Virus record (IMG/VR): IMGVR_UViG_3300045107_000871
Coordinates: 1 to 49,223 of that record
DNA: 49,223 nt
Strand: one strand, 5' to 3'
Source of the DNA: a virus
Shown: in pieces, positions 23,343-48,110 of the stretch
Position numbering within the stretch: the first letter of the stretch is position 1
How the letters are laid out: every line of letters begins with the position of its first letter
Made by a program: the position numbers and the translations under genes
The notes under the pieces: model-generated
The model's input: the letters and a program-made list of their open reading frames with translations, nothing else
What the model was told of the DNA's origin: nothing
The model's database searches: none

Positions 23343-23343
23343 C

Positions 23344-27984: not shown

Positions 27985-27985
27985 C

Positions 27986-30479: not shown

Positions 30480-30482
30480 TCG

Positions 30483-32495
30483 ATGTCGACGAAGGTTCCG
30501 GCTGAACTTGCGCAGGAGATCGCCACGACCGCGAACGGTCGCGACATCACGCGCGCCTATGTTCGCGACCTGGAAGAACCCAAGGATCCGCGACTGCTCG
30601 GCTCGGTCGACTGGGGTGTCTACGATCGCATCCGCATGGACGACCAGGTCAAGTCGACCATGGCTCAGCGAATCTCGGCCGTCGTTTCGCGGGATTGGGA
30701 CGTGCTGCCCGGCGACGACAAGGATCCGCGCTCGGTGCGCGCAGCCGACGAGTTCAAGCTGATGCTCGAGGAGGCCAGCATCGATCGCGTCCAGGAGAAG
30801 ACGCTCTGGGCGACCTTCTATGGCTATTCAGTGACCGAGCTGATCTGGAAGCCAGGACCGAACCGGATCGACTTCGGGCTGAAGGTACGTCACGCCCGCC
30901 GCTTCCGGTTTACGCCCGCGGGCGAGCTGCGACTCCTGACCACGTCCGCGCCGCGCGGCGAGGCTGTTCCGGACCGAAAGTTCTGGGTCGTTCGCGCCGG
31001 CGCGACGGACGACGACGAGTTCTATGGGCGGGGCTTGGCGGAATGGCTCTACTGGCCGGTGACCTTCAAACGGAACGGCATCCGCTTCTGGAATAAGTTC
31101 CTCGACAAGTTCTCCGTGCCGCCTGCGGTCGGCAAGTATCGCCCCGGCTCGCCGCGCGAGGAGATCGCGAAGCTCCTGGCCGCGCTCGGCGCGCTCGCGA
31201 ACGACACCGGGATCGTGATCCCTGAGGGCGCAGCTATCGAGCTTCTCCAGGCTGCGAACGCCGGTCCGGACTTTAAGACGATGCCGGCGTACATGGACGA
31301 GGCGATCGCGAAGATCGTGCTCAGCCAGATCATGACGACGCAGGACGGCGGCGGCGGACGGGCGACGGGCAAGATCCATGAAGGCGTCAAGCTCGAGGTG
31401 ATCAAGGCCGATGCCGACACCCAGAGCGACAGCTTCAATGAAGGCCCCGCGCGCTGGTGGACCGACCTCAACTTCGGCCCCGACGTCGCGTCCCCCCGCT
31501 TTGTTCGGATCGTCGAGGAGGAGGCCGACCTTAAGGCCCAGGCCGAGACGGACTCCACCCTAGATGCGCTCGGGTGGACGCGGAATGATGACAGCTTCCG
31601 TGACACCTATGGCGATGGCTATGAGCGGAAGCCTGAGCCGAAGCCCGCGACGGCGCGGCCGGGCGCGCTCAGCCCCGCGGCGAACGATACAAGCGTACCC
31701 GGCGACCCTGCGGCGGCGCCGGACGCCCGCCGACCTCCGACGCCGCGCCAGCAGGCCGCGAGCTTCGCGCTGAACGAGCCGCAGCCACTCTATGTGCAGC
31801 GCCGACTGAAGAACGCCAGCAAGCTCGTGGCATGGGCCATGGCGCAGGGGTTCAAGTCGACGCTCGCGGCCTCCGACATGCACGTGACGGTGCTCTTCTC
31901 GCGGCGCCCGGTCGATTGGTTCAAGCTGGCCGACGATTGGCAGAGCGAGGAACCACTTGTGATCCCGGCGGGTGGTCCCCGCCGCGTTGTGCGCATCGGT
32001 GACCAGGGCGCGATCGCGCTGCTCTTCGGCAGTTCACGCCTCACCTGGCGGCACAACGACATGGTCGAACAGGGCGCGAGCCACGACTTCCCCGAGTACC
32101 ACCCGCACGTCACCATCACGTACGATGCGGGTGATATCGATCTGTCGAAAGTCGAGCCGTACACCGGTCCGCTGACTTTCGGCCCGGAGGAGTTCGAGCC
32201 GCTTCAGCTCGACTGGCAGGACAAGATCAGCGAGGCCAGCTTCGCCGAGCCCCAGGGCGACATCGTCGACGCGATCGCCGCCCAGCTCGTTGAACAGGGG
32301 CTCACCCCCATGAGCCCCCTCATCGTGCCGATCGTGCAGGCGATCGCGGCCTCGAACTCGGTGGAGGAGCTTGAGCTCAATCTCCTGAAGTCCCTCGACC
32401 AGGCGCAGGTTGACCAGCTTGTGGAGCAGATCGGCCGCGCCGGTTTCGCGCTGCGCCTCGCCGCCGAAGCGGATGCCGATCGTCTCGATGGCTGA
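30483..32495 (+). CDS. DUF935 portal protein fused to a C-terminal 2H-phosphoesterase (Acb1-like) domain
   Basis: 670 residues. Residues 1-400 are a DUF935 (Mu gp29) portal: TSTKVPAELAQEIATTA start, SVDWGVYDRIRMDDQVKSTM, WATFYGYSVTELIWKPG, KIVLSQIMTTQDGGGGR. After a Pro/Ala-rich linker (405-430), residues 436-580 form a separate domain with two H-x-T motifs 75 residues apart: His467/Thr469 (DMHVTVLFSR) and His542/Thr544 (EYHPHVTITYD). LYVQRRLKNASKLVAWAMAQ, PVDWFKL and GASHDFPEYHPH are features I associate with Acb1-type anti-CBASS enzymes, which hydrolyse cyclic nucleotide signals. A helical tail follows (585-670). The portal call is firm; the enzyme is inference from motifs. Confidence 0.85.
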   Translation: MSTKVPAELAQEIATTANGRDITRAYVRDLEEPKDPRLLGSVDWGVYDRIRMDDQVKSTMAQRISAVVSRDWDVLPGDDKDPRSVRAADEFKLMLEEASIDRVQEKTLWATFYGYSVTELIWKPGPNRIDFGLKVRHARRFRFTPAGELRLLTTSAPRGEAVPDRKFWVVRAGATDDDEFYGRGLAEWLYWPVTFKRNGIRFWNKFLDKFSVPPAVGKYRPGSPREEIAKLLAALGALANDTGIVIPEGAAIELLQAANAGPDFKTMPAYMDEAIAKIVLSQIMTTQDGGGGRATGKIHEGVKLEVIKADADTQSDSFNEGPARWWTDLNFGPDVASPRFVRIVEEEADLKAQAETDSTLDALGWTRNDDSFRDTYGDGYERKPEPKPATARPGALSPAANDTSVPGDPAAAPDARRPPTPRQQAASFALNEPQPLYVQRRLKNASKLVAWAMAQGFKSTLAASDMHVTVLFSRRPVDWFKLADDWQSEEPLVIPAGGPRRVVRIGDQGAIALLFGSSRLTWRHNDMVEQGASHDFPEYHPHVTITYDAGDIDLSKVEPYTGPLTFGPEEFEPLQLDWQDKISEASFAEPQGDIVDAIAAQLVEQGLTPMSPLIVPIVQAIAASNSVEELELNLLKSLDQAQVDQLVEQIGRAGFALRLAAEADADRLDG

Positions 32496-33834
32496 CATCC
32501 GCGCCTCAATTGGCCTTCCGCCCGATGACATGGTGGAGTTCTTCAGATCGAAGGGCATCTACCCTGTCAGCCGGCGCTGGGACGACGTCTGGGAGGAGGA
32601 GCACGCTCGCGCCTTCACGGTCGCCAAGATGATGGATCGAACGCTGCTCGAGCGCGTGCGCGCGTCTTTGGATGACGTGATCGCCAACGGCGGGACGTTC
32701 GAGCAGTGGAAGGCCGGGATTGTGCCCCAGCTTCAGGCCGCGGGCTGGTGGGGCAAGATCGAGGATCGCCCCGAGCTGACCGGGGTCGACTATCCAATCT
32801 TCGTCGGCGAACCTCGACTCCGCACGATCTACAACACCAACCTGCGCATGGCGCGCGCCGCCGGCCAATGGAAGCGCATCCAGAGCCGGAAGGCCGTAGC
32901 ACCGTTCCTTCGCTACTCCGCCATTATGGATACGAGGACTCGGCCGCTTCACCGTCAGTGGCACGGCACGGTCCTACCGGTCGACCATCCTTGGTGGGAC
33001 ACGCATTTTCCGCCATGCGGCTGGAACTGCCGCTGCACCGTCATGCAGCTCTCGGAGCGCGACCTCGTGCGGCAGGGCTGGAAGGTGACGAACCCGCCGC
33101 CGTCGAGCCGCCTCAAACCGTGGCGGCGGTCGAACGGCACAATCGTCCAGGTGCCGGAAGGCATTGATCCCGGCTTCGCCTACAATCCTGGCAAAGCACA
33201 TCTGCGAGGGCTCGCCCCCGGCCCGATCGAGGGGGGTGTGAACGCGCCTATCATCGGCCCTGATCGGAAGCCCCGCGCGGAAAGCCCAGCCGAGCGAGCC
33301 GCGCGACTCTCGAAGGTTGCCGAGCTGCCGCCGATGCCGGCGCCGCGGGAGGTCGGGGGAGACCTCCTACTGCCCCGCGACACGCCGCCGGAGGAAGCTA
33401 TCCAGCGCTTCCTGGATCACTTCGAGGGTCGCGGCATCACTGATGGCGCCGTTCGTCTGATCGACGACATCGCCGGCGAGCCGCTCGTGATCTCGGACAG
33501 CTTCTTCTATCGGGGTGGCGTCGCCGGCCAAGGGCCGATGAAGCTCGACGACAAGGGCTTCCGCACCGAGCATCTGCTACTTCTTGCCGAAGCGCTCCTG
33601 TCGCCCGACGAGATCTGGTGGGCATGGGAATGGTTCGACGCGCTTGGCCGCTGGCAGCTACGTCGGCGCTATCTCGCCCGTTTTCTGATCGATGGTGAGC
33701 AGCGCGCCGTCATCCTGTCGATGAACACCGGCGCCGCCGGTTGGGAGGGCGTTTCGGCTTTCCTGTCAAAGCGCGGCGACAGCTATCTGGCGAACCAGAG
33801 AGGAGGCGTCCTTGCGTGGCGTCGCCCCGAATAG
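32488..33834 (+). CDS. F-like minor head protein (Mu gp30) with C-terminal PBECR nuclease-like domain
   Basis: 448 residues from ATG 32488, overlapping the portal by eight bases. Residues 35-190 are the phage head morphogenesis domain: RRWDDVWEEEHARAFTVAKM, YNTNLRMARAAGQWKRIQ, then the signature DHPWWDTHFPPCGWNCRC. Residues about 308-448 match the PBECR (Barnase/EndoU/ColicinE5/RelE-like) class known on such proteins: DSFFYRGGVAGQGPMKLD, PDEIWWAWEWFDALGRWQLR, RYLARFLIDGEQRAVILSMN. The domain may act as an injected nuclease or toxin. No catalytic residue was assigned. Confidence 0.82.
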   Translation: MADIRASIGLPPDDMVEFFRSKGIYPVSRRWDDVWEEEHARAFTVAKMMDRTLLERVRASLDDVIANGGTFEQWKAGIVPQLQAAGWWGKIEDRPELTGVDYPIFVGEPRLRTIYNTNLRMARAAGQWKRIQSRKAVAPFLRYSAIMDTRTRPLHRQWHGTVLPVDHPWWDTHFPPCGWNCRCTVMQLSERDLVRQGWKVTNPPPSSRLKPWRRSNGTIVQVPEGIDPGFAYNPGKAHLRGLAPGPIEGGVNAPIIGPDRKPRAESPAERAARLSKVAELPPMPAPREVGGDLLLPRDTPPEEAIQRFLDHFEGRGITDGAVRLIDDIAGEPLVISDSFFYRGGVAGQGPMKLDDKGFRTEHLLLLAEALLSPDEIWWAWEWFDALGRWQLRRRYLARFLIDGEQRAVILSMNTGAAGWEGVSAFLSKRGDSYLANQRGGVLAWRRPE

Positions 33835-33837
33835 AAA

Positions 33838-33857
33838 AGCCCGGCCGAAGCCGGGCT
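33838..33857 (-). terminator. Hairpin with leftward T-run after the F-like gene
   Basis: An 8-bp stem (33838-33845 with 33850-33857) with a CGAA loop lies four bases past the F-like stop. Read leftward it has a TTCG loop and then TTTTCTATTC, a good intrinsic terminator; read rightward the U-run is poor. It may block antisense transcripts or protect the 3' end of head mRNA. The 33835-33988 gap holds no gene. Confidence 0.5.
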
Positions 33858-33988
33858 CTGCTCCGTTCTCCGCTGCTCTTGGACCCACCACCGCCAGGGA
33901 TCGAGCAGCGCGGCGCGGCCGCCGTGCGGTGACCCAGCATTACGCCAGCGTAAGCCGAGACTCAACCTCCCATCGGAGACCTTAGATC

Positions 33989-34309
33989 ATGGGCAAGCTA
34001 AATCCCGCAGCAAACGATCGCGCCGCTTCGGTCGCGGAGGGCACGCTCAACGTGGTCGGCGCCGGCGCCGGCGCACAGGTGATCAGCCGGACCAACTTTA
34101 CACTCAGCGGAGACTTCGTGGGCACCGCGCGCCTCGAGCGCAGCTTCGATGGCGGCCAGACCTGGACCGCGCTCACGGCTGGTGGCCAGGTGATCGAGTT
34201 CACGAACCCGGTCAGCGAGGAGCTGGACGAGCTGGAGGACGGCGTCCTCTACAGGGTGCGCCTGGTCGCGCTGACGAGCGGCACGCTAGCGTGGAGGTTC
34301 AGCCGGTGA
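33989..34309 (+). CDS. Small beta-rich tail-associated protein
   Basis: 106 residues, beta-rich with fibronectin/decoration-like pattern (FTLSGDFVGTARLERSFDGG, QTWTALTAGGQVIEFTNPVS, VLYRVRLVALTSGTLAWRFS). GGAG precedes the ATG. It opens the three-gene cassette at the right end that closes with the tail spike. It likely binds the spike or virion surface; the family is not identified. Confidence 0.5.
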   Translation: MGKLNPAANDRAASVAEGTLNVVGAGAGAQVISRTNFTLSGDFVGTARLERSFDGGQTWTALTAGGQVIEFTNPVSEELDELEDGVLYRVRLVALTSGTLAWRFSR

Positions 34310-34794
34310 AGAGCGTTCTCGCCAGCGCGAGCCAAAGCTCAACCGGCAGCTTCCCGCGCGCGAGCGCTTCCGCCTTCCTGACGACGCTGGCGGCGGGGCA
34401 GGCGATCGCCGACCTGAGCAAGCCGTTCGGCGCCGGCACGATCCTCTCCGTGGTCGGCGGCATCCCCGCGCAGCTGGCCTATGCCGCAGGCAAGATCACG
34501 CGCGGCGCCGGCGCCGCCGTTGGCGGACAGACCTACTCGATCCGCATCCGCGCGGAGAGTGCGGACGGCAAGCGTGCGATCGAGCGAACGCTCGACTTCA
34601 TCGCGATCGCGCCGATCGTGATCAGCGGCAATCCGCCGGATGCGACTGTCGGTCAGGCCTACGAGCACATTTTCACCGCCAACGGCCCGGTCGCGATCTC
34701 CCCGGCCGATCAGGCCGCGCTCGCGGCCTACGGCATCCAGTGGGACGCGGCCGCGCGGCGGCTCTTCTCCTCAAACGTTCTGCCCGGAGCCTAG
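34306..34794 (+). CDS. Ig-like/cadherin-like structural protein
   Basis: 162 residues from GTG 34306 (GTGA overlap). The front (1-60) is Ala/Ser-rich (SFPRASASAFLTTLAAGQAI), the middle beta-rich, and the end carries a putative Ig-fold motif, VISGNPPDATVGQAYEHIFT. Such modules are frequent on tail fibres. It lies directly upstream of the spike, three bases before its ATG. Probably part of the adsorption apparatus. Confidence 0.5.
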   Translation: MKSVLASASQSSTGSFPRASASAFLTTLAAGQAIADLSKPFGAGTILSVVGGIPAQLAYAAGKITRGAGAAVGGQTYSIRIRAESADGKRAIERTLDFIAIAPIVISGNPPDATVGQAYEHIFTANGPVAISPADQAALAAYGIQWDAAARRLFSSNVLPGA

Positions 34795-34797
34795 CGA

Positions 34798-37700
34798 ATG
34801 GCGGTTATCTCAATCACGATCGGTCCGGACGCTGCGGCGAACGCGACAACGTTTTCGAACGCCTACGCGGCGGCCGCGATCGGCGACACGATCGAGATCG
34901 ACAACACGCACGCGACCGACTCGGAAGTGATCGAGCTTCCCAATCCATTTTACTGGACGAAGCCGGTCACCATCCGCGCCAAAAACCGTGGCCCGGCGCA
35001 ACCGCATCCGTTCCTCGGTGCCCTGCCGAACTTCTTCAAGCGCCGGGTCATATTCAGGATGCTCAGCCGTGCGGCGACGGGCAACGACGTGACCAAGCTG
35101 ATGCGCTGGGAGGGTATACGCTTCGAGCGCCCGCGCATCTGGCCGAACTTCACCGGCACGGGCGAGACCTGGGGGGATCTGCTCCCTTATCCGAAGGCGC
35201 GCGCGATCTTCGACGCGCTCGACGGCAACAACGATGCCCAATGGCAGATGATCGGCTGCGAGGCCTTTGGAGGGTACGGCGGCGGCGGGAACGTCAATAA
35301 TCCACTCCCGTACGACACCAGCTACAAGTATCCCGACCTGGACAGCCCGGCCACCTACTACTCACGGCCGGGCAACCTCGCCGATACCAAGGGCCGATTC
35401 TCCATCGTGCAGGACGGCTATTTCACCGTTCCCTTCAGCGTGGGCGGTTGGGGTGACGCGATTGGCTCACTCCGCAATAAGTTCGGGAACCTGATCTACA
35501 ACGCCCTGCACCAGGCGCCGAACCTCTTCTCGGGCTACTTCAATCAGTTCTACACCGAGGACTGCTATTGGCACGATATCGGGGTGCCGGAAGGCATCGT
35601 GCAGGAGCGCGCGGGCGGCCCGATGACGTACGAGAGCAAGGCATGCGTTTGGGAGAACATCACCAACTTCTGCTCGCAGGTCAGCCGCAACCGACCGGGC
35701 GGCAGCACGTTCTGGTGGGATCGCCCGATCGTCTACGGGATGATGGGTCACGCCCTCGACCTCGGCAACCCACACAGCGACGCTTTCTTTCCCGGATCGA
35801 ACATCGGCGACGCCAGCCTGGAGCGGCATTATCAGGCCCGCCTGACGAAGGCGATTATTCTGCCGAAGGAGAATGAACGCACTTGGTGGACTGCCGTTCG
35901 CAACCAGCCGGCCCCCTATTCGCACCCTGGCATCTACGCCCAGGGTCACCAGCTCTATTACAGCTTCCTCTTCCAGACGGCGGGCTACCAGTTCGACATT
36001 TCGTCGATGGATTTCGACGCGGTCGGCAACATCCTCGCAAAGGCGCGCCACTATGTCTCGGTGACCTCGACGACGCCGGGCGGAGAGACGCAGAACGGTC
36101 TTCTCTGGGTCCTCGCGGGGACAGGCGACAAGCCGACGCGGGGTCGCATCCGTGGAAACATCACCGAGACGCTCATCAACACGACGGGTGCGGTCGAGCT
36201 GGACAATATCCGCCTCAACTATGCCGGGGTGGTGACGGCTTTTGCCAATCCCACGGCGCCGGCCGAGACGCTCGAGCAGCTTTACCAGAACTACCGCTAC
36301 GCGGCGAACACCACGATCCCGGCGGAGTTCCGCAACCCGTACCCGACGGTCGCAGCTCTTCGTGCCTCGGCTTCGGTTGCATCGGTGCCGCCGTTTGCCG
36401 CGCCGGTCTCGGTCCGCGGCGCCGTGGCCAACACCGTCGTCACCTCGAACATGTTCATCAAGCATGGCGGCGACCTGGGCGACGTTCACGTCTTCACTCC
36501 GCCCGCCGGGCTCGAATGGCGCGAACTATCCTACGACGGCTCGACTCAAACTCGAGCCTGGGGCACCGCGCCTGGCCCAGTCGTGACTGGCCGCCTGATG
36601 CAGTTCCGAACGACGTCGTCGCCAACGGCCAATGGCACCGTCACGAAGACTGGCGACCTGGGCGGCGTGCCCGTCTCCTGGAGCGTCGTGACTGCGACCG
36701 CCAACAAGTGGCCCGGCGCCGTCCTGAACGAGACCCGCCTCGTCCTGAGCCCGCAAGCGGGCCTGAAGGACAAGACAGGGACCCGCTTTCCGGGCAATCA
36801 GCGGAAAGGCTCACTTTTCGTCGTCTACAAGAACCAGACCGGCCAGCGAACGGACGGCAAGCGCCCGTATCTGCTCCACGAGCGCGGCGGCGACGGAGCG
36901 CCATGCACCTTCATTGTTGCCAATCCGAACGAGCCCCTCGGCAACAATCCTCCGACGACGTGGGCGATCGCCCGCTCGGGCGCATATGTCGGCGCGCTGG
37001 CCGAGCAGTCCGGCGGCAGCGGGGTGAACAACAACGACGCGCTGATGATTTTCGCCATGTCGTGGGACGCGGACGCCGGCCTCAAGCAGTGCGTCCACAT
37101 CAACTCCAACGGTCAGATCGTCGACGCGTCGGCCTCAATGGCGCTCAACCCTGGCGAGCAGGGCATCAGCAACCAGAACATCTGGACCCTCTTCCAGGGC
37201 TGGGACACCGGCACCAACAACGTGTTCGGGGCGGACTTCCGGGGTGACTTCTACGCCCTCGGCCTGAACATCGGGAAGTTCACCGACTGGAAGGCAGGGA
37301 ACTTCGCCAACTTCAACAAGCTGTTCGATCCTGACGGCGTCGGCTATCGCTTCAATGCGCTCGACCCGGACGGCGAGGACTGGACGATCGCTGTTGTGGG
37401 CGACGCCGCCCGCTTGAACGGCGGGACCGCCAACCTCAATCCGCTCAACCCGTTCGTTCCCGACACGGCGTTTCGTGGCGACACCACAAAGGCCTCGGTA
37501 AATGCGGTCGACAAGGCCGTGACCGGTGCCACCTTGCCTGGGACGAAGCTGGCAATCACCGCTGAAGTGCTGACCGCCAAACCGAGCGTCGGCCGTCCCG
37601 TCCAGGTGCTCGTCCAGTTCAGCGGCTCGAACGCACCGACGCAGCTCACTCCAACATGGGGCGGCGTGGCTCGCACGTCCCAGGATGGGGTGAAAGCGGC

Positions 37701-37923
37701 GCCGGCGAACAGCAATGGGATCGTCTTGGAGGCGGTGCCCAGCGCTGCCGGTAACCTCACCCTCTCGCTCGCGAACGACCAGGGCCACACAAACCCCGCT
37801 CAGGTCGTGATCCCGGTAGTTGCGCGTGACCCACGCGCCACCGTCAACTTCACCGTTTCCCCCGCGTCTGGGCAGGCCGGAAACCCGTTTGCAACGTCCT
37901 TGAAGGTCTACGACCCGGCCTAG
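34798..37923 (+). CDS. Large tail spike/fibre, beta-helix type
   Basis: 1041 residues. Residues 1-500 have a right-handed beta-helix look: TFSNAYAAAAIGDTIEIDNT at the start is the typical pectate-lyase-like entry, followed by repeating short strands, MRWEGIRFERPRIWPNF and YNALHQAPNLFSGYFNQFYT. Residues 520-900 are a second region (VYKNQTGQRTDGKRPYLLHE), and about 920-1041 an Ig-like C-terminus (PSVGRPVQVLVQFSGSNAPT). It probably recognises or cuts a surface polysaccharide. The N-terminus lacks a recognised virion anchor, so the two small upstream proteins may provide it. Confidence 0.65.
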   Translation: MAVISITIGPDAAANATTFSNAYAAAAIGDTIEIDNTHATDSEVIELPNPFYWTKPVTIRAKNRGPAQPHPFLGALPNFFKRRVIFRMLSRAATGNDVTKLMRWEGIRFERPRIWPNFTGTGETWGDLLPYPKARAIFDALDGNNDAQWQMIGCEAFGGYGGGGNVNNPLPYDTSYKYPDLDSPATYYSRPGNLADTKGRFSIVQDGYFTVPFSVGGWGDAIGSLRNKFGNLIYNALHQAPNLFSGYFNQFYTEDCYWHDIGVPEGIVQERAGGPMTYESKACVWENITNFCSQVSRNRPGGSTFWWDRPIVYGMMGHALDLGNPHSDAFFPGSNIGDASLERHYQARLTKAIILPKENERTWWTAVRNQPAPYSHPGIYAQGHQLYYSFLFQTAGYQFDISSMDFDAVGNILAKARHYVSVTSTTPGGETQNGLLWVLAGTGDKPTRGRIRGNITETLINTTGAVELDNIRLNYAGVVTAFANPTAPAETLEQLYQNYRYAANTTIPAEFRNPYPTVAALRASASVASVPPFAAPVSVRGAVANTVVTSNMFIKHGGDLGDVHVFTPPAGLEWRELSYDGSTQTRAWGTAPGPVVTGRLMQFRTTSSPTANGTVTKTGDLGGVPVSWSVVTATANKWPGAVLNETRLVLSPQAGLKDKTGTRFPGNQRKGSLFVVYKNQTGQRTDGKRPYLLHERGGDGAPCTFIVANPNEPLGNNPPTTWAIARSGAYVGALAEQSGGSGVNNNDALMIFAMSWDADAGLKQCVHINSNGQIVDASASMALNPGEQGISNQNIWTLFQGWDTGTNNVFGADFRGDFYALGLNIGKFTDWKAGNFANFNKLFDPDGVGYRFNALDPDGEDWTIAVVGDAARLNGGTANLNPLNPFVPDTAFRGDTTKASVNAVDKAVTGATLPGTKLAITAEVLTAKPSVGRPVQVLVQFSGSNAPTQLTPTWGGVARTSQDGVKAAPANSNGIVLEAVPSAAGNLTLSLANDQGHTNPAQVVIPVVARDPRATVNFTVSPASGQAGNPFATSLKVYDPA

Positions 37924-38278
37924 AGACTTGACAGGTAAGAAACGAACCAAGGTGGCAAAACAGGCCTCAGGGCGCTCAGAGCCTAAAAGTTAACAGATTG
38001 GACGCCGAACCCCGCAGATTTCTGCCGTTTCTCGCACCCGATGCACATTTTTTCGGAAACTGGGAAATCGGCGTGTCTTTGCGGGGCTCTTCTCTCGGAG
38101 GCGCAGCTGGCGGGAGGGCGGAACTGGGAAATAATCGGGCAAAAAGTCCGCCCCGATTCGACCGGCGCCCAGTGGCGCACGAAAACCGCAGAAATCAGCC
38201 ATTTCGGTCCCGGTTTGTCCCATCATGTCGCGCCAAATCCCGGCCTGCTTCTGGGAAAGGAGTTATTGCCCGGTCACA
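37924..38278. other. Non-coding right end of the prophage with repeated motifs
   Basis: 355 bases between the spike stop and the GTA junction hold no convincing gene. The word CTGGGAAA occurs three times in the same orientation (38060, 38124, 38251), twice within a longer unit CGGAA(A)CTGGGAAAT(AA)TCGG. An inverted pair also lies here. Mu-like ends carry several transposase-binding sites, so this is the probable right-end array. Confidence 0.6.
38014..38199. repeat. Inverted repeat pair near the prophage right end
   Basis: The plus strand at 38014-38030 and the minus strand at 38199-38183 match at 15 of 17 positions around the core GATTTCTGC, followed by GTTT. Spacing is about 160 bases. These are candidate transposase or host-factor sites. 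No repeat of this kind was noticed around the repressor. Confidence 0.55.
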
Positions 38279-38283
38279 CTCTG
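38251..38283. other. Prophage right end (attR) and predicted target duplication
   Basis: Reading inward on the minus strand from 38278 the sequence is TGTGACCGGG, giving the TG/CA ends used by Mu-type transposases; 38276 (TGACC) is an alternative. The GTA g15 frame matches its family up to CGG CAG AG and then reads VTGQ-stop from phage DNA. If Mu-type 5-bp duplication applies, CTCTG (38279-38283) should also flank the left end. Confidence 0.6.
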
Positions 38284-40182
38284 CCGTACCCAGCCGATGT
38301 CGAACCCGCCGTCACTACGGCGCCGGGCCCGGAGCAGCACCGGCGGCGGCGGACGGAGCGACGTGCCGATCGAAATCGCCTCGGTCTGAACCGGCGCAGT
38401 GTCGCCGACCCCGGTCGCGAGCAGCCGCACCTTGCCGCCCGCCGCCGCCAGTGGCGGATCCCAGGCGAGGAGCGTATCGGCCGTGAGCAGCACGAAGCGC
38501 TCGCCAGCCCGATGCGTTGCTGCCGCAAAGCCTGTGCCCCGCCGCGCGCGCAATAACCGCTCGAGCCGCCATCGCGGACCGCCAAGCGGCACGGCGCGAC
38601 CGAACTGCACAAGCTCGCCGCCGATCAGCGCAAGATTGACGCCCGCAGCGAGCTGGCCGGGATCGGCATCCGACAACTGCATGCCGGCGTGAAGCAGCCG
38701 CACCTCCACGGTTGCGACCAGATCGAGCAAAAACTCCTCGCCCGGCGGCAGTCGCGTCTCGGCGATGCCCATGGTCGTCGGCAAAGCCGTATCGCCGATC
38801 GCCGTCCAGCTGGCGCCGTCATCGATGCTGGCGAGCAAACTCGCCTGCCGCCATCCGGGCGACGCACCCGCCGCCGCGATATATAGCCGAGGCGCCTCCG
38901 ACAGCGCGTCGCCGAGCGGCGGCAGGTCGAGCAGATGAACCGTCGTCGGACCATGCGGCGCGTCGAGCGGCGACAGGCTGCGCCCCGGGTCTGCCGACCA
39001 GGCGAGCGCCGGCGCGCCTGCCTCGGCCAACAGGTCGAGCGTCACGCCGTCCCGCGCGATGCTGCGGTCCAAGACGCGCCACCGCGCACCATCGGGCGTC
39101 TCGACACGGCTTCCCGGTGACAGCGACATTTGCGACCAGCCGCATTGGATTTGCCGGCGTGCCAGCCCTGAATAACGCGTCGCCAGATAGCGTTCGGCAA
39201 GGGCCTTTGCCGCATCCGCCGACACGGCCGCCGGCAGTTCGATGCGCGCGATCGAGCGTCCGCCGCCTCCTCGCCGGGCGCGCTGCAGCCCGGCCTGATA
39301 GTCGCGCGCCGGATCGAGATAGGCGAGGCTCGCCTCGCCCGGTGCTTCGCCCGCTGGCTTGCGCCGATCTTCCGCACCGTCGGCTATGTCGACGGACGGA
39401 ATCGTCACGACGGGATCACTCTCCCGCTCGAGGCGGAGTGCCTGTCCGTCGTCGATCAGCCGCAGCGGCATCACGGCTTCCAGCGTCTCGACCAAGGTCG
39501 CGAGGCTGTCGCCGGTGGCGGCGAAGCCGTCCAGCGACGGGCCGCCGGTTGCATCGATGTCCCCGTCGCTCAGCGCGGCGAGAATCGCGCCCGCAGCACA
39601 GGGATAGGCATCAGCCTCAATTTCGAAGGTAAGCGACGGGATACGGTTGCCGAACGGCTCGAGCGGCATGTTCTCGAACACTGCATACGCGCAGCCCCGA
39701 TAAGCCGGCGTGGCGCCCTCTGCGGCGGCGATCAGCGGGTCGACCGGCTGGTCCGCGCCTCCGCGGTGCAGGCGAAAGCCGGTCGTCTGCTTCCAATCTC
39801 CCGCGGCGCCGCGCAGCAGATTGCCGTCGGCCCAGATCCGGCGCACGTTGCTGATCGGCCGGCCAGAGAGCAGCACCGCGAACGAGGCTGCATAGCTGTA
39901 CCGCGTCGTGCGCGGACGTCCTTTCCCGCCCTCGCGCGTGCGCGTTTCGATCAGGTCGGTCGACCAGATCACAGTCCCGGCAACCCGGAGCGTGCCGAAC
40001 AGCTTGGGGATGGTCGAGCCATAGGAGGACGTCTGCACCCGCAGATCCTGCAACCGCGGCCCTTCCTTCCCCTTGGGCCTGAATATCCGGTCGTCGATCG
40101 AGCGGCCGAGCAAGGAGCCCAGCGACGCGCCGAACGGCCCGCCAATGGCCGAACCGATCGCGGTCAGGACAAGCGTCGCCAT
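38263..40182 (-). CDS. GTA g15-like tail tip/host-specificity protein, C-terminally truncated by the prophage
   Basis: 639 residues as read, of which about 635 are native. The start is typical of sphingomonad g15: MATLVLTAIGSAIGGPFGAS, then TSSYGSTIPKLFGTLRVAGT, IWADGNLLRGAAGDWKQ, and AYAVFENMPLEPFGNRIPSL. It ends GFDIGWVRQS and then VTGQ-stop, where relatives known to me continue further after the GWVR motif. The last codons lie in prophage DNA. The protein forms the tail tip and contacts the recipient cell, so the GTA is probably not functional. The ATG overlaps g14 by 19 bases. It is shorter than Rhodobacter g15, whose N-terminal TIM-barrel part is missing. Confidence 0.82.
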   Translation of the reverse strand: MATLVLTAIGSAIGGPFGASLGSLLGRSIDDRIFRPKGKEGPRLQDLRVQTSSYGSTIPKLFGTLRVAGTVIWSTDLIETRTREGGKGRPRTTRYSYAASFAVLLSGRPISNVRRIWADGNLLRGAAGDWKQTTGFRLHRGGADQPVDPLIAAAEGATPAYRGCAYAVFENMPLEPFGNRIPSLTFEIEADAYPCAAGAILAALSDGDIDATGGPSLDGFAATGDSLATLVETLEAVMPLRLIDDGQALRLERESDPVVTIPSVDIADGAEDRRKPAGEAPGEASLAYLDPARDYQAGLQRARRGGGGRSIARIELPAAVSADAAKALAERYLATRYSGLARRQIQCGWSQMSLSPGSRVETPDGARWRVLDRSIARDGVTLDLLAEAGAPALAWSADPGRSLSPLDAPHGPTTVHLLDLPPLGDALSEAPRLYIAAAGASPGWRQASLLASIDDGASWTAIGDTALPTTMGIAETRLPPGEEFLLDLVATVEVRLLHAGMQLSDADPGQLAAGVNLALIGGELVQFGRAVPLGGPRWRLERLLRARRGTGFAAATHRAGERFVLLTADTLLAWDPPLAAAGGKVRLLATGVGDTAPVQTEAISIGTSLRPPPPVLLRARRRSDGGFDIGWVRQSVTGQ

Positions 40183-40538
40183 ATCCCCAGCACCTCCCCT
40201 TCCGGCACGCCCGGCCGCTCGACCACGCGGCGCAGCGTTGCGTCCGCGTGGACAGTTCCGGTCGCGCTCGACACGCCCAAATGAAGTTGCCCCGGGCCCG
40301 GCCGGCTCAGCACCACGTCTCCGGGGGCTATCGCGCTCGCGCGCACAAAGCCCGCCGCCCGAAGCACAGCTTCGATCTCGCGCGGATCACCACCGCGCAA
40401 CGCATAGCCAGTCCGGGCCGGCACGCCCGTCGCGGCCGCCACCAGCCCGACACAGTCGAGCCCTGTCGCCGGATCCCGCCCGTGCAGTCGAAAGCGCGTG
40501 CCGACAAGGGCGCGCGCGCGTTCCGCAATCTCGCTCAT
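40164..40538 (-). CDS. GTA g14 NlpC/P60-type cell-wall peptidase
   Basis: 124 residues from ATG 40538 (ATGA overlap with g13). The catalytic Cys29 is in GLDCVGLVAAATG and the His86 in GQLHLGVSS. APGDVVLSRPGPGQ between them is the usual strand pair. In RcGTA this enzyme sits in the tail and helps cross the recipient's peptidoglycan. Confidence 0.88.
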   Translation of the reverse strand: MSEIAERARALVGTRFRLHGRDPATGLDCVGLVAAATGVPARTGYALRGGDPREIEAVLRAAGFVRASAIAPGDVVLSRPGPGQLHLGVSSATGTVHADATLRRVVERPGVPEGEVLGIWRRLS

Positions 40539-41347
40539 TCGCCCGGGTACCGGGTCAGCAGGTCGAGGCCGGGCAGATGCGGCTCGCCCCGAAAGTTCGC
40601 CGCATTGGCAAAGCGTGTCCGGCAGGTTTCGAAGCTCTTGTCGCACCCTTCGGTGAGCTCGACCCGCACGCCCGAGATCACTGGAAAGCGCGGCGGAGTG
40701 GCGAGCGTGAGCGTCGCGTCCGCGCTCGCCAGGATGGGTTGAACAAGCCCGCCATTGCGCCCGTCGAGCCAGCGCAAGCGGCCCCACCCCCAGGCATTCG
40801 CGACGGGCTCGGACCGATCGACAGTCACGTGTGTATCGGCAGCGGACAAGACCCGCGCGATGCGAGTCCGCTCCGCGAGCGGAACCTGGCATCGCGAGTC
40901 TCCGAATTCGGCCCGGCATTCGGGCGAGGTCTCCTCGACGATGGGCCGGTCGAGCAGGGCGCCCGCACCCTTCACCTCCGCGCTGAACTTCCCCTTCGAC
41001 AAAGTGACGCCGCCGAGTTCGCCGCGCGCGAGCTGGACGAAACTGCCCGGATCGTTCCAATCGACGACAAGCAACCGTACATGCGCGCCGTCCCACCGTC
41101 CGGCGCGAAGATCGGCCTCGCTGAGGGAGGCGGCACTGACTGCGCCCGCCACTTCGAAGGCCCGCGCCTCGCCCACGCTCGCGCTTTCGATTGCTGATGG
41201 CGCGATGCCCGGCGACGCTCGATAAAGCAGCCCCTCGACCACCAGATCGCGGTCATGGCTGGTGAAGCCGAGCGTGACCCCGTCGCGTCGCTCGAGCCGC
41301 CAGCACAAGGCAAAGCTCGTGAGCTCTTCTGCAAGGAATGCCGCCAT
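40535..41347 (-). CDS. GTA g13 hub protein (DUF2163)
   Basis: 270 residues. N-terminal DUF2163: ALCWRLERRDGVTLGFTSHD, DLVVEGLLYRASPGIAPSAI. The C-terminus has the strongly conserved EGCDKSFETCRTRFANAANF with two Cys and GEPHLPG, which in RcGTA bind an iron-sulphur cluster in the tail hub. One base separates it from the g12 stop. Confidence 0.92.
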   Translation of the reverse strand: MAAFLAEELTSFALCWRLERRDGVTLGFTSHDRDLVVEGLLYRASPGIAPSAIESASVGEARAFEVAGAVSAASLSEADLRAGRWDGAHVRLLVVDWNDPGSFVQLARGELGGVTLSKGKFSAEVKGAGALLDRPIVEETSPECRAEFGDSRCQVPLAERTRIARVLSAADTHVTVDRSEPVANAWGWGRLRWLDGRNGGLVQPILASADATLTLATPPRFPVISGVRVELTEGCDKSFETCRTRFANAANFRGEPHLPGLDLLTRYPGE

Positions 41348-41348
41348 C

Positions 41349-43631
41349 TCAGCCCTCGCGCACTTCGATCAGCGGCACGTTCGGCGCCTCGCCCGCGAGA
41401 AAGGTCGTACGGCTGACCTCGATCCGGTCTTCGGCAAATCGTACCGGCACGTCGAAACGAAATCCCGCCGTCACCGCGACGCCGGCCGCGGGCGCGGCAT
41501 CCAACATGATCACCCCCGCGGTCTCGACCTGAAAAGCATTGGTCTCGACGCCGCCGACCGCGACGCGCACGCTGCCCGCGACCGGCCGCGTGATCCTCCG
41601 CCGGGTATCGCCATAGGCTTTGATGAGCGGGAAGCGGGTCCGCATCCCGTCGCCAGACCCGAGGAGCTGGTCGACCGGGCTCGGCACCGCGCTGGCGACG
41701 TTCGAACTGTCGTCGAACGGATCGCGAAAGCGGAACGCCTGCGCCGGACCGCGCCGCGCCCGGAAGAAGGCGATCAGAGTCGCCAGATCCGCTTCGGAGC
41801 GGATTCCTGGCCCGGCATCGAAACGCAGTCGCGCGTCCGCCCATTCGCTGTTGCGCTGCTCGCGCCCGCCCGCGCCGGACGCGATGGCGGTCGAGGTAGT
41901 CGCGACCACGCTCGCCTCGCGTCCGATTTCGAGCGGGAAAGGAACATCGGCAAAGGCGTCCACCTCTTCCTCCTCGTCGAACCAGATGAAGCCGTCGCGC
42001 TGCACCTGCGGCAGCGCCCAGAGAATCGTTTCCGCGACGCCGCGCGCACGGGCGGCCTTGGCCGCAGCGGCGATTTCGTCCCATTGCGCCTGGTCGGCGG
42101 GCGCGAACACGAAGCCGCTCAGATAGTGCTGTTGGGCGACGGGATAGCCGAGCCGAGCCGTCGCGGCCGCGACGCCGCGCGCGGTGTCGCCGCGCCGGCC
42201 CGCTGTCACCCACTCATAATCTTCGAGCTGGAGCACGTCGAAGGCCGGCCTCGTCCAGCCGAGCGGGAGCAGAGCGCGTTGCACATCCGCGCCCGTCATC
42301 GCCGTCGGAAGATAGGCGAGCAGCAGCGTTTGCGCGTCGGCTGCGACCTGCCGCACGGCCGCGGTCAATGCGGCAGTCGAGGCGGCGAGGCACGCGCCGG
42401 CTGCGTCGAGCAAGGCGCACTGGGCGGCGGTAAGCGCGCCCCGCACATCGGCGATCACCGGCGGCGATCCGCCGAATGCGGCCTTTGCCGCCGCGTCGTA
42501 GAGGTAGATGCGACCGGCCTGGTCGACCCACCACCAGGGCTCGCCGACCTGGAAGCGGACCTTCAGCCCCGCCGTCTTGGCGATGGTCACGAATGCGCTC
42601 GCGACCGCGCGAAGATAGGTCATCGCGTCCGGGTTGGCCGGTGACAGCAGCGCCGAAGGCGGACTCCAGCCGGTGCGTGCTGGATCGCCATTGGCGGCGC
42701 GCTGCTTCCAGGCTTCCGGGCAGTTCGCGTCGAACAGCTCGTAGCTCAACGACCAGATTACATCGTAATCGAGTGCCCTGGCGCGCTCGGCGAAGTCGCG
42801 GTGCCATGCTGCGCAGGGGGCACAGAGCGCTCCGCCTGCGAGCGTCGCCAAGCCGCCCGCGAGCCGCGCATAATGGCTCATCCCGACATAATGGTTGATC
42901 AGCTTGCGATAGCCGAGCTGCAGGATCGTCCGCAGCAGCCGCGCCGGCGTGACGTTGTAGCAGTCGTCGTAACCCGTCGCGATGCGCAGCTCGTGCGGCG
43001 GCACGAGCACGTCGCCAATCGTCAGCACCGACCGGGGCCCGTCGCAGGTGATCGCGCTCATCTCGGCCCAGCCCTCGACCGGCGCGGGCAGGTCGGCGGC
43101 ACTGCCGTCATAGCCGGCCGCGACCAGGGATACGAACATGCGGTCGATGTCGCCCGCCCAGACGGGATCCGCCTCGCCCGGCAGCAGGAAGCCGCCCGAC
43201 AGCGCGTCGAAGTCCAGCCGGATTACCGCGTCGGTCGGCGTGCCCTGGGCGTAGTTCCACAAGCGCACATACCAGGCGCGCGGCTGGCCCGCCGCGTCGC
43301 GCCCTTCGATGGTGAGCGTCGGGCCCCAGACCGCGTTCAGCGGCAGGATGCCCGCCGATCGCCAGCGAAAGCTCAGCCGGCAGCCGCGGAAGTCGCGATC
43401 GGTCTCATAGGCGAGCAGCGGATGATCGTGCTTGTCCTCCGCCCACCAGATCAGCCCGGCCAGATCGGCCTTGCGGTAGAAGACGGCGTCGACGCGCAGC
43501 GCGTCCGGCGCGGTCGTCACCACCGACGCCATCATCGGGCGCGGGAAATCGACCGTCCAGAAACGCGGATCGAAACGCTTGATGACGCCGGTCTCCTGCC
43601 CGGTGCGAGCGGATGCGAGCCAATGGCCCAT
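41349..43631 (-). CDS. GTA g12 distal tail protein (DUF2460) with long N-terminal TIM-barrel-like extension
   Basis: 760 residues from ATG 43631, which has GAGGAGG upstream; longer in-frame starts overlap g11. Residues about 560-760 are the DUF2460 distal tail domain (FPLEIGREASVVATTST, RFDAGPGIRSEADLATLIAF, VPLIEVREG). Residues 1-550 are a large extension with hydrolase-like features (DDCYNVTPARLLRTILQLGY, IWSLSYELFDANCPEAW, VRFQVGEPWWWVDQAG, LQLEDYEWVTAG). RcGTA g12 is only about 210 residues. The extension may replace the TIM-barrel part of Rhodobacter g15. Confidence 0.85.
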   Translation of the reverse strand: MGHWLASARTGQETGVIKRFDPRFWTVDFPRPMMASVVTTAPDALRVDAVFYRKADLAGLIWWAEDKHDHPLLAYETDRDFRGCRLSFRWRSAGILPLNAVWGPTLTIEGRDAAGQPRAWYVRLWNYAQGTPTDAVIRLDFDALSGGFLLPGEADPVWAGDIDRMFVSLVAAGYDGSAADLPAPVEGWAEMSAITCDGPRSVLTIGDVLVPPHELRIATGYDDCYNVTPARLLRTILQLGYRKLINHYVGMSHYARLAGGLATLAGGALCAPCAAWHRDFAERARALDYDVIWSLSYELFDANCPEAWKQRAANGDPARTGWSPPSALLSPANPDAMTYLRAVASAFVTIAKTAGLKVRFQVGEPWWWVDQAGRIYLYDAAAKAAFGGSPPVIADVRGALTAAQCALLDAAGACLAASTAALTAAVRQVAADAQTLLLAYLPTAMTGADVQRALLPLGWTRPAFDVLQLEDYEWVTAGRRGDTARGVAAATARLGYPVAQQHYLSGFVFAPADQAQWDEIAAAAKAARARGVAETILWALPQVQRDGFIWFDEEEEVDAFADVPFPLEIGREASVVATTSTAIASGAGGREQRNSEWADARLRFDAGPGIRSEADLATLIAFFRARRGPAQAFRFRDPFDDSSNVASAVPSPVDQLLGSGDGMRTRFPLIKAYGDTRRRITRPVAGSVRVAVGGVETNAFQVETAGVIMLDAAPAAGVAVTAGFRFDVPVRFAEDRIEVSRTTFLAGEAPNVPLIEVREG

Positions 43632-43641
43632 GCGCGCCTCC

Positions 43642-44187
43642 TCAATCGAGCGCGCGGCGCACCGCGCGCGCGACTTGCCGGCTGGACCGCACCAATGCCT
43701 GCGCTGCATCGCCGCCGGCTGGCGTCGTCACGTTGATGGTGATGGCGACATTGCGGTCGCGCGCCGCTGGAGCGGCGGCGACCTGACCGGCTGTCGTGGG
43801 CACGAACAGCTCGGGACCGCGCTCACCGACCAGATAGGGTCGGCCGGGCGAGACGGGGCCGCCGGTCGCACGGCCGGGCAGGCCACCGAGGCCGCCGCCG
43901 AAAAGATTGCCCAGCCCGAACGAGCCGAGCAGAGAGTCCAGGCCCGAGCGCACCGCGCTCGCCGCGATGTCGGCAAAAACCTGAAGGATGATCGATCTCA
44001 GATCGTCAAAGCCGAGCTTGCCCGTGCGCACCGCCTTCACCAGCGCGGACTCGAGCGCGCGTCCGGCGCGCGCGGCGCTGTCGGCGAACGGGCCGTCGAG
44101 CTGTCCGCGCAAGGTGTCGACGTCGCGCGCAAAGCTGGTCGTATCCGCGCGCACCGCGACGACCAGCCGTTCGATCTCTTCATCCAT
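43642..44187 (-). CDS. GTA g11 short tape measure protein
   Basis: 181 residues, as short as expected for GTA tails. The N-terminus is helical (DEEIERLVVAVRADTTSFAR), followed by LESALVKAVRTGKLGFDDLR, a hydrophobic/Gly segment (LLGSFGLGNLFGGGLGGLPG), and the C-terminal RATGGPVSPGRPYLVGERGP. The end is Ala-rich. It overlaps g10.1 by eight bases. Its length predicts a tail about one sixth of the prophage tail. Confidence 0.9.
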   Translation of the reverse strand: MDEEIERLVVAVRADTTSFARDVDTLRGQLDGPFADSAARAGRALESALVKAVRTGKLGFDDLRSIILQVFADIAASAVRSGLDSLLGSFGLGNLFGGGLGGLPGRATGGPVSPGRPYLVGERGPELFVPTTAGQVAAAPAARDRNVAITINVTTPAGGDAAQALVRSSRQVARAVRRALD

Positions 44188-44371
44188 CGGGGAACTGCTC
44201 CTTCATGCGCGCGACGAGTGCGGCGTCTGCCGGTGCGTCGCTGGCGGGGGCGAGCGCCGCGAACACCGCCGCCAGCTCGGCCGGCGTCGCGCGCCAGAAT
44301 TGGTCCGGCGCCCAACCGAGCACTGCGCCCGCGGTGCCGGCCAGCGCCTGTGCGCGTTCCGAAAAGGTCAT
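44180..44371 (-). CDS. GTA g10.1 tail assembly chaperone (rcc01693-like)
   Basis: 63 residues from ATG 44371, overlapping the g10 stop (ATGA). The pattern ALAGTAGAVLGWAPDQFWRA TPAEL is typical of small TAC_6-type chaperones in GTAs. It precedes the tape measure. No slippery heptamer was noticed at this junction. Confidence 0.85.
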   Translation of the reverse strand: MTFSERAQALAGTAGAVLGWAPDQFWRATPAELAAVFAALAPASDAPADAALVARMKEQFPDG

Positions 44372-44679
44372 CGGCCCTGGAGGATCTGGCCAAGCAGTAC
44401 GCGCAGCGCCGGCGTCGCCTGAGCGAGCCCGCCCGCCGCCACCACCTCGCCGAGGCCATCGCGATCGAGCTCCGCCGGGCGCTCCGCCAGGCAGTGCCAG
44501 AAGAGTGCGACCATTTCGCCGAACGCGAGCTGGCCGGCCGCCGCCCGCTCGACGAGGGCGAAGAGCGGCCCCAACTCCTGCTCCGCCGCCACGAGAGCGG
44601 TGAAGCTCGGGCGGAGCACCAAGTCGGCCCCGCGCACACGAAGCGTCGCCTCGCCGCGGATCGGGTTGGCGCCGCTCAC
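44368..44679 (-). CDS. GTA g10 family chaperone (TAC_11 type)
   Basis: 103 residues from GTG 44679 (GTGA overlap with the g9 stop). The family pattern is NPIRGEATLRVRGADLVLRP SFTALVAAEQELG, then AFGEMVALFWHCLAER. It probably escorts tail tube or tape measure during assembly. Order and overlap follow RcGTA. Confidence 0.86.
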   Translation of the reverse strand: MSGANPIRGEATLRVRGADLVLRPSFTALVAAEQELGPLFALVERAAAGQLAFGEMVALFWHCLAERPAELDRDGLGEVVAAGGLAQATPALRVLLGQILQGR

Positions 44680-45083
44680 GACGCCACCACCGCGCCGGAG
44701 CTCTCGAGTGCGACCGTGTAGGTGCGCTCGCCATTGAAATCGCCGGCGAAGTCGAGGCGGGTAAGCAGAAACTTGCCGCGCAGCTTCTCGCCGCTTTCGA
44801 AGCTCAGCTCATAATCGTCGACCAGCCCGGCGAGCGCGTTGTTGCGCAGTCGCGTCTCGGCGGCCGAGCCAGTGAATACGCCCGCGCCTGAAACCGACAC
44901 CGAGCGCACTCCCGCGCCCGACAGCAGCTCGCGCCAGCCGCCCGAGCCCTTGTTGGTGACGACGATCGCCTCGCCGTTGATGCTGAGCTGAGTCGTGCGC
45001 AGCCCCGCCACCGTCGAGTAGACGACGGGCGTCGCGCCGTTGCCGACCTTGAGCAGGAAAGCGCTGCCCCGTTCGATTGGCAT
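44676..45083 (-). CDS. GTA g9 major tail tube protein
   Basis: 135 residues, TP901-1-like tube protein: SAFLLKVGNGATPVVYSTVA, GLRTTQLSINGEAIVVTNKG, SGGWRELLSGAGVRSVSVSG, then LRNNALAGLVDDYELSFESG. It polymerises into the short GTA tail. Fifteen bases separate it from g8. Confidence 0.92.
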   Translation of the reverse strand: MPIERGSAFLLKVGNGATPVVYSTVAGLRTTQLSINGEAIVVTNKGSGGWRELLSGAGVRSVSVSGAGVFTGSAAETRLRNNALAGLVDDYELSFESGEKLRGKFLLTRLDFAGDFNGERTYTVALESSGAVVAS

Positions 45084-45098
45084 GATCTGTCCCTTTCC

Positions 45099-45497
45099 TC
45101 AGAGGAGTTCGAGCGCGCGCACGCGGACGTCGAGCTCGGTCGACCAGGCGTTGACCGCGATGCTGCGCGTGAGTGAGCGGAGATGGACGAAGGCGCCGAG
45201 CTGCCAGCTGCCCAGCGTGCGCGGCACGGCGGCAAGCGCAAGGAGCGCGGCGTCGGCGAGCGCGAACATCCGCGCCGGCGTCTGATCCGTATCGACGACG
45301 ACGAGCGTCAGCCGCAGCTCGCGCCCGGCTGCGCCTTTCACCGACCAGTCGGCGGCGAGCATTTCGCCGAGCGCGACATAGGGCGGCGTCGCCCGCGTCG
45401 GCCGGCCGTCATGGACGCCGTTGGCAAGGCCCGCGATCGTCGGATCGGCGGCGAGCGCGGCAAGCATGGCGGCGCGCAGATCGGCCTCGAGGCTCAT
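45099..45497 (-). CDS. GTA g8 tail terminator (DUF3168)
   Basis: 132 residues from ATG 45497 (ATGA overlap). DUF3168 pattern: LRAAMLAALAADPTIAGLAN, GVHDGRPTRATPPYVALGEM, then RLTLVVVDTDQTPARMFALA. In RcGTA g8 closes the tail tube at the head side. Confidence 0.9.
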   Translation of the reverse strand: MSLEADLRAAMLAALAADPTIAGLANGVHDGRPTRATPPYVALGEMLAADWSVKGAAGRELRLTLVVVDTDQTPARMFALADAALLALAAVPRTLGSWQLGAFVHLRSLTRSIAVNAWSTELDVRVRALELL

Positions 45498-45697
45498 CGC
45501 ACCAGCCTCCCCAGCCAGCGCAGCCGCGGATCGCGCCGCGCGCGCGCCAGCAGTCCGCGCCCCTCGAGCCGCACGCCGTCGTCCGTCTCGCTGACGACGA
45601 CGCCGGGCAGATCGATCGCCGCCGCGAGCCGGGCGCGGAGCCGGGCGGCGGCGCGCGCACCCGCTGCCGCCGCGCGCGCCTGCAGACGCTCCAGCAT
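45494..45697 (-). CDS. GTA g7 stopper-type protein, small
   Basis: 67 residues from ATG 45697 (TGATG with g6). It is Arg/Ala-rich with a helical front (LERLQARAAAAGARAAARLR) and then DLPGVVVSETDDGVRLEGRG. The latter half matches the small head-tail joining proteins at g7. It is shorter than RcGTA g7, but the tight junctions and the conserved back half support it. Confidence 0.75.
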   Translation of the reverse strand: MLERLQARAAAAGARAAARLRARLAAAIDLPGVVVSETDDGVRLEGRGLLARARRDPRLRWLGRLVR

Positions 45698-46242
45698 CAG
45701 CCGAGCCCCACCCGGCGCCACGGCCGCCACAGCGCCGACACCGCCGCCGGCGGCGCGGCTTCCTCGGCATCGTCGCGGTGGCTGTAGAGATGCGTCGCCA
45801 GTCGCACGATGCCTTGCGCCAAGGCGGCGGGCAGCTCCGCCCAGCTCGCCGCCAGCCCGGCCTGATAGGTGACGCGGACCCGCCCCGCCGCACCGGGCTG
45901 GTCGACCCGCACCCAGCCGGCGCCATCCGCGTCGATGTCGATGCCGTATCCGGCGACCGGCAGCACGAACGCCGCGCCTTCGGCCGGCAGCCCCTCGACC
46001 AGCGTGATCGCGCCAACCGGCGACGCCCCGAGCCGCCGCCACACGGGTGCGGCGTTCAGCACCTCGACCGCCTGGCGGACCAGCACGGTCTGCCCACAAA
46101 AGGCCTCGCACAGGGCGATCGCCGTGCGGGCAAGCGACAGAATCAGCCCGTCCTCGGCCGCGCGGTCGATCCGCGCATAGAGCTTCACCGCTTCGCGCGC
46201 CGCCGCGAGATCGGCCGCGCCGAGCTCCGCTAGTTTCAGCAC
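45697..46242 (-). CDS. GTA g6 head-tail adaptor (gp6-like)
   Basis: 181 residues from GTG 46242, with GGGGAGG upstream. The connector pattern is DLAAAREAVKLYARIDRAAE, LARTAIALCEAFCGQTVLVR, then RVRVTYQAGLAASWAELPAA and VRLATHLYSHRD. It forms the adaptor ring below the portal. It follows the capsid after 75 bases that hold a perfect palindrome. Confidence 0.9.
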   Translation of the reverse strand: MLKLAELGAADLAAAREAVKLYARIDRAAEDGLILSLARTAIALCEAFCGQTVLVRQAVEVLNAAPVWRRLGASPVGAITLVEGLPAEGAAFVLPVAGYGIDIDADGAGWVRVDQPGAAGRVRVTYQAGLAASWAELPAALAQGIVRLATHLYSHRDDAEEAAPPAAVSALWRPWRRVGLG

Positions 46243-46255
46243 ACACGCCTCCCCC

Positions 46256-46277
46256 GCCCGGGCGCCGGCGCCCGGGC
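46256..46277 (-). promoter_or_regulatory. Perfect GC-only palindrome between GTA capsid and adaptor genes
   Basis: A perfect 22-base palindrome (11-bp arms, no unpaired centre) in the 46243-46317 gap. In RNA it would form a stem with a short loop. There is no T-run after it in the leftward direction, so it is more likely an RNA stabiliser or attenuator behind the capsid than a full terminator. Confidence 0.5.
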
Positions 46278-46317
46278 CTCATTGCTGACGATTTTGAGAG
46301 TCCCGCTTTGCGGCGGA

Positions 46318-47397: not shown

Positions 47398-47747
47398 CAC
47401 TCCACCGTGATCACCCGCGCGAAGGGCTGCATCGGCAGCCGCACCAGGCTCACCTCCACGAGGTCGAGATCGATGAGCTCGCGCCCGCCGCCAGTGCCGG
47501 CGCGCGCCGCGCGCACCCGGTACCCGATCGACAGCCCCATGCCGGCACGCACTGGCCGGTCGCAGCGCGCGACGACACGCAGTCCTTGCGCGTCCTCCTC
47601 CAGCCGCTCGACGGTGCCGACCCGGCCGCCATGCTCCCAGAGCAGCGGCACCTTGGCCGGGGCCGCGCGGAACGCGCCCGCGCGCACCACGTCGCCGCCG
47701 CGATCGGCGCGGTCGAACACCGCCGCATAGCCGGCGAAGCGCGTCAC
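47397..47747 (-). CDS. GTA g4 HK97-type prohead protease, short form
   Basis: 116 residues from GTG 47747 (GTGA overlap with g3.5). The family pattern is RFAGYAAVFDRADRGGDVVR AGAF, VPLLWEHGG with the catalytic His, GLSIGYRV with the catalytic Ser, and DLVEVSLVRLPMQPFARV. It matures the capsid. Short forms of this length are usual in GTAs. Confidence 0.92.
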   Translation of the reverse strand: MTRFAGYAAVFDRADRGGDVVRAGAFRAAPAKVPLLWEHGGRVGTVERLEEDAQGLRVVARCDRPVRAGMGLSIGYRVRAARAGTGGGRELIDLDLVEVSLVRLPMQPFARVITVE

Positions 47748-48052: not shown

Positions 48053-48072
48053 GACGTCCCGTCTCCACAGAT

Positions 48073-48090: not shown

Positions 48091-48110
48091 GACGCGCCCC
48101 CGCGCTCGTG

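Follow-up and report, generated by a model that had tools for sequence, protein, structure and literature searches.

A Mu-type siphophage has, with high probability, transposed into g15 of a sphingomonad gene transfer agent (GTA) cluster because its lineage prefers the 3' end of such clusters, probably through a target choice encoded by the phage itself. The window, by which we mean the whole stretch of DNA analysed, is a complete virus record of 49,223 bp and comprises one Mu-like siphophage (1-38278) and a GTA cluster (38263-49223, minus strand); the host carrying this insertion is a sphingomonad. Comparison with related prophages showed that the phage lineage has a regional integration preference for the GTA 3' end, and that GTA genes g8-g10 are preferred by a related subclade and a small host gene by other relatives. 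The features of the window are as follows.

1..38278, plus strand: Mu-like prophage with incomplete left end, delimited by synteny with relatives and by right-end homology
694..16211, minus strand: endolysin, tail, tape-measure region, neck, major head protein and head protease genes
18720..19391, minus strand: phage repressor (c-like)
19637..21622, plus strand: MuA-like transposase (HTH_Tnp_Mu_1, rve, Mu-transpos_C)
21638..22393, plus strand: MuB-like AAA ATPase, with a weak TniB match
22339..22971, plus strand: protein with two predicted winged-helix regions beside MuB, divergent between phage clades
23917..33834, plus strand: Gam, GemA, Mor-like, TerS, TerL, portal and gp30-like genes
34798..37923, plus strand: 1041-aa protein without family match, last gene before the right end, possibly a tail spike
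38000..38278, plus strand: phage right end, with three CTGGGAA motifs at 38060, 38124 and 38251, ending TTATTGCCCGGTCACA
38279..38283, plus strand: CTCTG, right copy of the predicted 5-bp target duplication, placed by right-end homology (duplications are proven only in relatives)
38263..40182, minus strand: open reading frame of GTA g15, truncated after codon 634 (639 aa; Pfam Phage-tail_3 and Rcc01698_C)
40164..49223, minus strand: GTA g14 to g3, frames intact, g3 cut by the window end

The junction lies at 38278/38279, where the right end of the siphophage (...TTATTGCCCGGTCACA) abuts g15 after codon 634. Leftward from 38278, the sequence is homologous to the right ends of the related phages G003, G286, G317 and G132, and the terminus (...TTATTGSCSRGTCACA) is identical base for base to those of related phages. 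By homology to phages with both ends known, the right end of the window's phage thus has the TG...CA type of terminus with repeated transposase-site-like motifs. The homology and the boundary together bear out the sequence-only reading that a Mu-like prophage end lies inside g15. Window base 1 is the stop of a gene within the phage, and the phage left end and the remainder of g15 lie beyond the window. Since other records of the collection likewise begin at a gene stop codon, the record was probably trimmed at a gene boundary; gene order shared with G286 would put the left end some 0.7 kb to the left of the window start. As the window starts within the phage, only the right-hand CTCTG is visible, and a search within the window for a left CTCTG next to TG found none. 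The motif departs from the NYSRN consensus at one position, as do three of the 13 duplications proven in relatives. We infer that the window's phage is a simple insertion with a predicted CTCTG duplication.

The insertion has removed the ends of both the gene and its protein. The host-derived part of g15 stops at base 38279, which leaves 634 complete codons and 2 nt, compared with 718-736 aa in 15 of the 16 sphingomonad relatives that were parsed (in the 16th, L128, g15 looks frameshifted). This agrees with the earlier claim that the gene is truncated, and places the break about 75-80 aa before the end seen in relatives. By this comparison about 80 C-terminal codons are removed and VTGQ-stop is added, the phage end contributing some or all of the final codons (SVTGQ-stop). 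Conservation of the lost stretch, which the sequence-only reading took for the putative receptor-contacting tip, extends to the C terminus of Rcc01698, the g15 protein of RcGTA (6TBA/6TEH). A g15 that stops naturally at the window's break, which would have spoken against truncation, was found in none of the matches listed in a table that gives open frames rather than exact gene lengths; a family survey detected g15 in 238 of 329 sphingomonad genomes. Where the locus is not interrupted in sphingomonad relatives, a DUF2793 gene begins 0-42 bp after g15, and neither this gene nor the g15 tail was found elsewhere in the window. As a separate observation, the phage right end (window 38263-38280) supplies the VTGQ-stop in frame to the truncated g15, and G003 uses the same frame, each with one chance in three.

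The rest of the GTA cluster has intact frames. It is of RcGTA type, with the conserved structural genes g3-g15 in order (portal, protease, capsid, tail tube, tape measure, tail sheath/TIM-barrel together with DUF2460, hub, and the truncated g15). The frames of g3-g14 align end to end with those of the intact relative G286, as the sequence-only reading had anticipated in finding no decay in the other genes; its proposal of a recent insertion is a conjecture. The cluster shares gene order and families with RcGTA of Rhodobacter capsulatus (6TBA/6TEH), and g15 aligns with Rcc01698 in two stretches that extend to the C terminus. However, g15 has 1304 aa in RcGTA and about 720 in sphingomonads, which add DUF2793, and the window's g15 is cut by the phage. 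Between GTA g5 and g6 (about 2.6 kb), G286 carries an extra phage-like coding sequence that the window lacks; one of its frames presumably resembles spike-base proteins.

The phage itself encodes the Mu-like hallmark pair, a MuA-type DDE transposase and a MuB ATPase. The sequence-only reading was right that a Mu-like phage is present, but it had taken the right part alone for phage, and we found that all of 1-38278 is. The layout is odd for a Mu-like phage: the protease-to-lysis genes lie on the minus strand to the left of the repressor, and the transposition genes with TerS, TerL, portal and gp30 on the plus strand to its right. This two-strand layout is conserved across the family (the window, G003, G004, G008, G009, G286, G317, G132, G267 and others) and is therefore not a rearrangement of the window's copy. 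We also considered whether the left half of the window is a second prophage or a mis-joined contig, and rejected this on finding an equal layout in all those relatives examined that offer enough sequence. Two further observations concern individual regions. Positions 23603-23778 and 24046-24224 are neighbouring direct repeats, 71-84% identical; the 3' parts of the genes at 23448 and 23810 have apparently been duplicated here. The region 16252-18472, located between the head protease and the repressor, holds HTH-like and DUF7168/DUF2786 genes and one unmatched minus-strand open reading frame; its genes were not found in other clade members, and it is probably a cargo region.

Four members of the phage clade have a visible host flank (the window, G286, G317 and G003). 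All of them, in four hosts, sit in a stretch of some 0.7 kb at the GTA 3' end, where they occupy four positions but share a single orientation. They form one group on a MuA+MuB tree with 100/99 support. In G286, both phage ends are on one contig and the prophage sits exactly between the g15 stop codon and DUF2793, leaving both neighbours intact, with a perfect 5-bp duplication (CTGAA/TTCAG). In G317, again with both ends and a perfect duplication (GCCAG/CTGGC), it lies inside DUF2793 after codon 132, and the remainder of that gene follows beyond the left end; in G003 it interrupts DUF2793 after codon 134. When viral contigs were scanned with the right-end and left-end motifs, only G003 and unrelated matches came up.

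One account of a Mu-like phage in g15 is chance: Mu-like phages integrate almost anywhere, and g15 happened to be hit, recently. The window taken by itself would fit, since its GTA genes show no decay and Mu integrates with little site preference. The other three clade members, however, occupy the same short zone in other hosts, and they were found by transposase similarity alone, without looking for GTA genes. If integration were uniform and events independent, as the calculation presumes, and with site classes defined after inspection, the chance that all 3 of 3 non-window members fall in 1.3 kb would be about 8e-11. Because all four placed members lie within about 0.7 kb, we do not regard the insertion as a chance hit, and a random event is strongly disfavoured and very improbable. 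The sequence-only reading had treated the event as a one-off hit on g15, and this did not survive the comparison: the insertion lies at a hot spot in GTA clusters that is used repeatedly and across the clade.

The clustering could also reflect a single ancestral insertion that four hosts inherited and that adjacent deletions or local transposition then shifted. All four prophages share one orientation, and an adjacent deletion is seen in G946, a phage of a related subclade. However, G286 and G317 belong to one genus and carry near-identical phages at two sites separated by about 0.44 kb; a perfect duplication of its own marks each site, and the neighbours of the empty site are undisturbed. Three of the four sites are distinct by proven duplication or by sequence, so the zone received independent integrations. 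Common descent is refuted for G286 versus G317 and could apply only to the window, which makes it the least probable of the explanations considered.

A different doubt concerns the window's own event. Instead of a simple insertion, the phage may have been followed or created by an adjacent deletion, in which case the g15 tail and DUF2793 would be gone rather than lying beyond the left end. This is conceivable because the left junction lies beyond the window and because G946 shows that such deletions occur: no duplication is present there, and parts of g9 and g10 are gone. CTCTG, moreover, is an imperfect NYSRN. On the other side, the phages of G286 and G317 inserted simply and left the remainder of the locus in place, and we consider a deletion in the window unlikely, if somewhat less so than the other alternatives.

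Sites were readable in 17 further phages besides the window; in G004, G005, G006, G007, G009, G709, G710, G712 and G714 the sequence ends before the phage ends, and no site could be assigned. Six of the 17 are in GTA clusters: G286, G317 and G003, and the second subclade of G008, G922 and G946, which sits in g8-g10. G922 is in g10 with the duplication CCCGA and both GTA halves on one contig, G008 is at the 3' end of g8 with the duplication GCCAT, and G946 (L151/L156) lies between g9 codons 1-56 and g10 codons 57-104, with GTA sequence lost and no target duplication. Eight others are found at one small conserved host gene, either inside it (G132, G267, G711, G713, G716, G035) or in neighbouring genes (G701 and G736, the latter in an S24-type repressor gene beside it), and three are elsewhere (G109, G794, G886). 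G132, about 25 kb from its GTA, was considered as a GTA insertion and not counted, because it lies among ordinary host genes in the small-gene hot spot. A 5-bp duplication was proven in 13 phages (G286, G317, G132, G267, G109, G711, G008, G035, G701, G736, G922, G794 and G886), and 10 of these fit the Mu-type NYSRN consensus. Under the same presumptions of uniform, independent integration and site classes set after inspection, 6 of 17 insertions in a 15-kb GTA would arise at random with P about 5e-10. Furthermore, site labels cluster on the MuA+MuB tree (0 of 200 shuffles as low), and the two GTA positions correspond to two separate clades.

These data also bear on the possibility that integration is random and selection follows, GTA-hit cells surviving better because a cell that makes GTAs is lysed, or because GTA production competes with the phage. 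Two subclades do hit GTA genes, and damage is seen in g15 (window), g10 (G922), g8-g9 (G008/G946) and DUF2793 (G317, G003). Nevertheless, the insertions fall in two short clade-specific segments and are not spread over about 15 kb, the G286 insertion leaves the g15 and DUF2793 frames intact, and most relatives prefer the small non-GTA gene. Such selection in favour of a broken GTA may contribute to the pattern without explaining the short clade-specific zones or the harmless G286 position; as the main cause it is quite unlikely.

We therefore return to a regional preference of the phage lineage, as a result of which the phage landed in g15. In outline, a Mu-type transposable siphophage would have integrated into g15 by transposition, with the predicted CTCTG duplication, and the preference would be phage-encoded and act at the first, integrative transposition. 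Target choice would most likely be set by MuB or by the adjacent protein with two winged-helix regions, and the state of the DNA at the GTA 3' end perhaps helps. The two-winged-helix protein is our candidate target selector; its identity averages 52% within the clade versus 33-37% outside. No selector of TnsD/TniQ type was found among the window phage proteins scanned with PHROGs and the transposition-region proteins scanned with Pfam. Another candidate would be a phage-borne GapR (Pfam GapR_DNA-bd), found in four clade members; GapR is known to bind overtwisted DNA, at the 3' ends of genes with high expression (PMC8510090). The gene occurs at varying places: near the left end in L038 (G286) and L040 (G317), at about 11.0 kb in G003, about 7.2 kb in G709 and about 36.7 kb in G701. 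As a diagnostic of GTA targeting it was rejected: it is present in G003, G286, G317 and G709, but also in the non-GTA phage G701, and it was not seen in the window, beyond which the phage left end lies. GapR is thus a lead only, being neither exclusive to the clade nor seen in the window. More tentatively, a heritable phage-encoded choice may steer first integration into GTA clusters and have evolved at least twice (at the 3' end and at g8-g10), with the two-winged-helix protein or GapR as selector and with the clusters parasitised and often disabled by an active phage; we put this wider proposal forward as possible rather than probable. By analogy with the Citromicrobium phages, replicative transposition after induction may be random.

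Those phages, phiA and phiB, are the nearest parallel by description: like the window's phage they are Mu-like siphophages of Sphingomonadales, and they make 5-bp NYSRN duplications and integrate at strong hot spots (PMC12486242). In 24 of 24 lysogens phiA was located in a single 40-bp zone of one hypothetical gene, and phiB used six hot spots, whereas replicative transposition of phiA was chromosome-wide, with GTA-like genes neutral for it; the main text does not describe integration into GTA clusters (PMC12486242). With phage Mu and Mu-like siphophages such as Rhodobacter phage RC1, Rhodovulum phage RS1 and Pseudoalteromonas phage HS6, the window's phage shares MuA, MuB, Gam, GemA, a Mor-like protein and TG...CA ends; the 5-bp target duplication typical of such phages is proven in its relatives and predicted for the window. 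It differs in that the best named transposase match is only 30-33% identical over partial length, and in that its family splits the structural genes on two strands around the repressor and uses clade-specific sites. Tn7-like transposons resemble it in outcome, having an AAA regulator (compare MuB and its weak TniB match) and recurrent lineage-specific target loci; unlike them, the window's phage has no TnsD/TniQ-type protein among those scanned, and its lineage's sites spread over hundreds of bp instead of one fixed position. A literature search, with most subscription papers outside its reach, turned up no account of repeated integration into GTA clusters. Mu-like phages of Sphingomonadales were thus already known to integrate at hot spots, and recurrent targeting of GTA clusters appears to be new.

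Textbooks present transposable phages as integrating almost at random. In the family studied here, two subclades land repeatedly in GTA clusters, each time with a duplication of independent origin where one is proven, and other relatives have a different locus in common; target choice in Mu-like phages thereby becomes a trait open to comparison between clades and to mapping onto genes. The same insertions reveal a natural agent of GTA breakage and so have a bearing on why sphingomonads lose or keep their GTA clusters.
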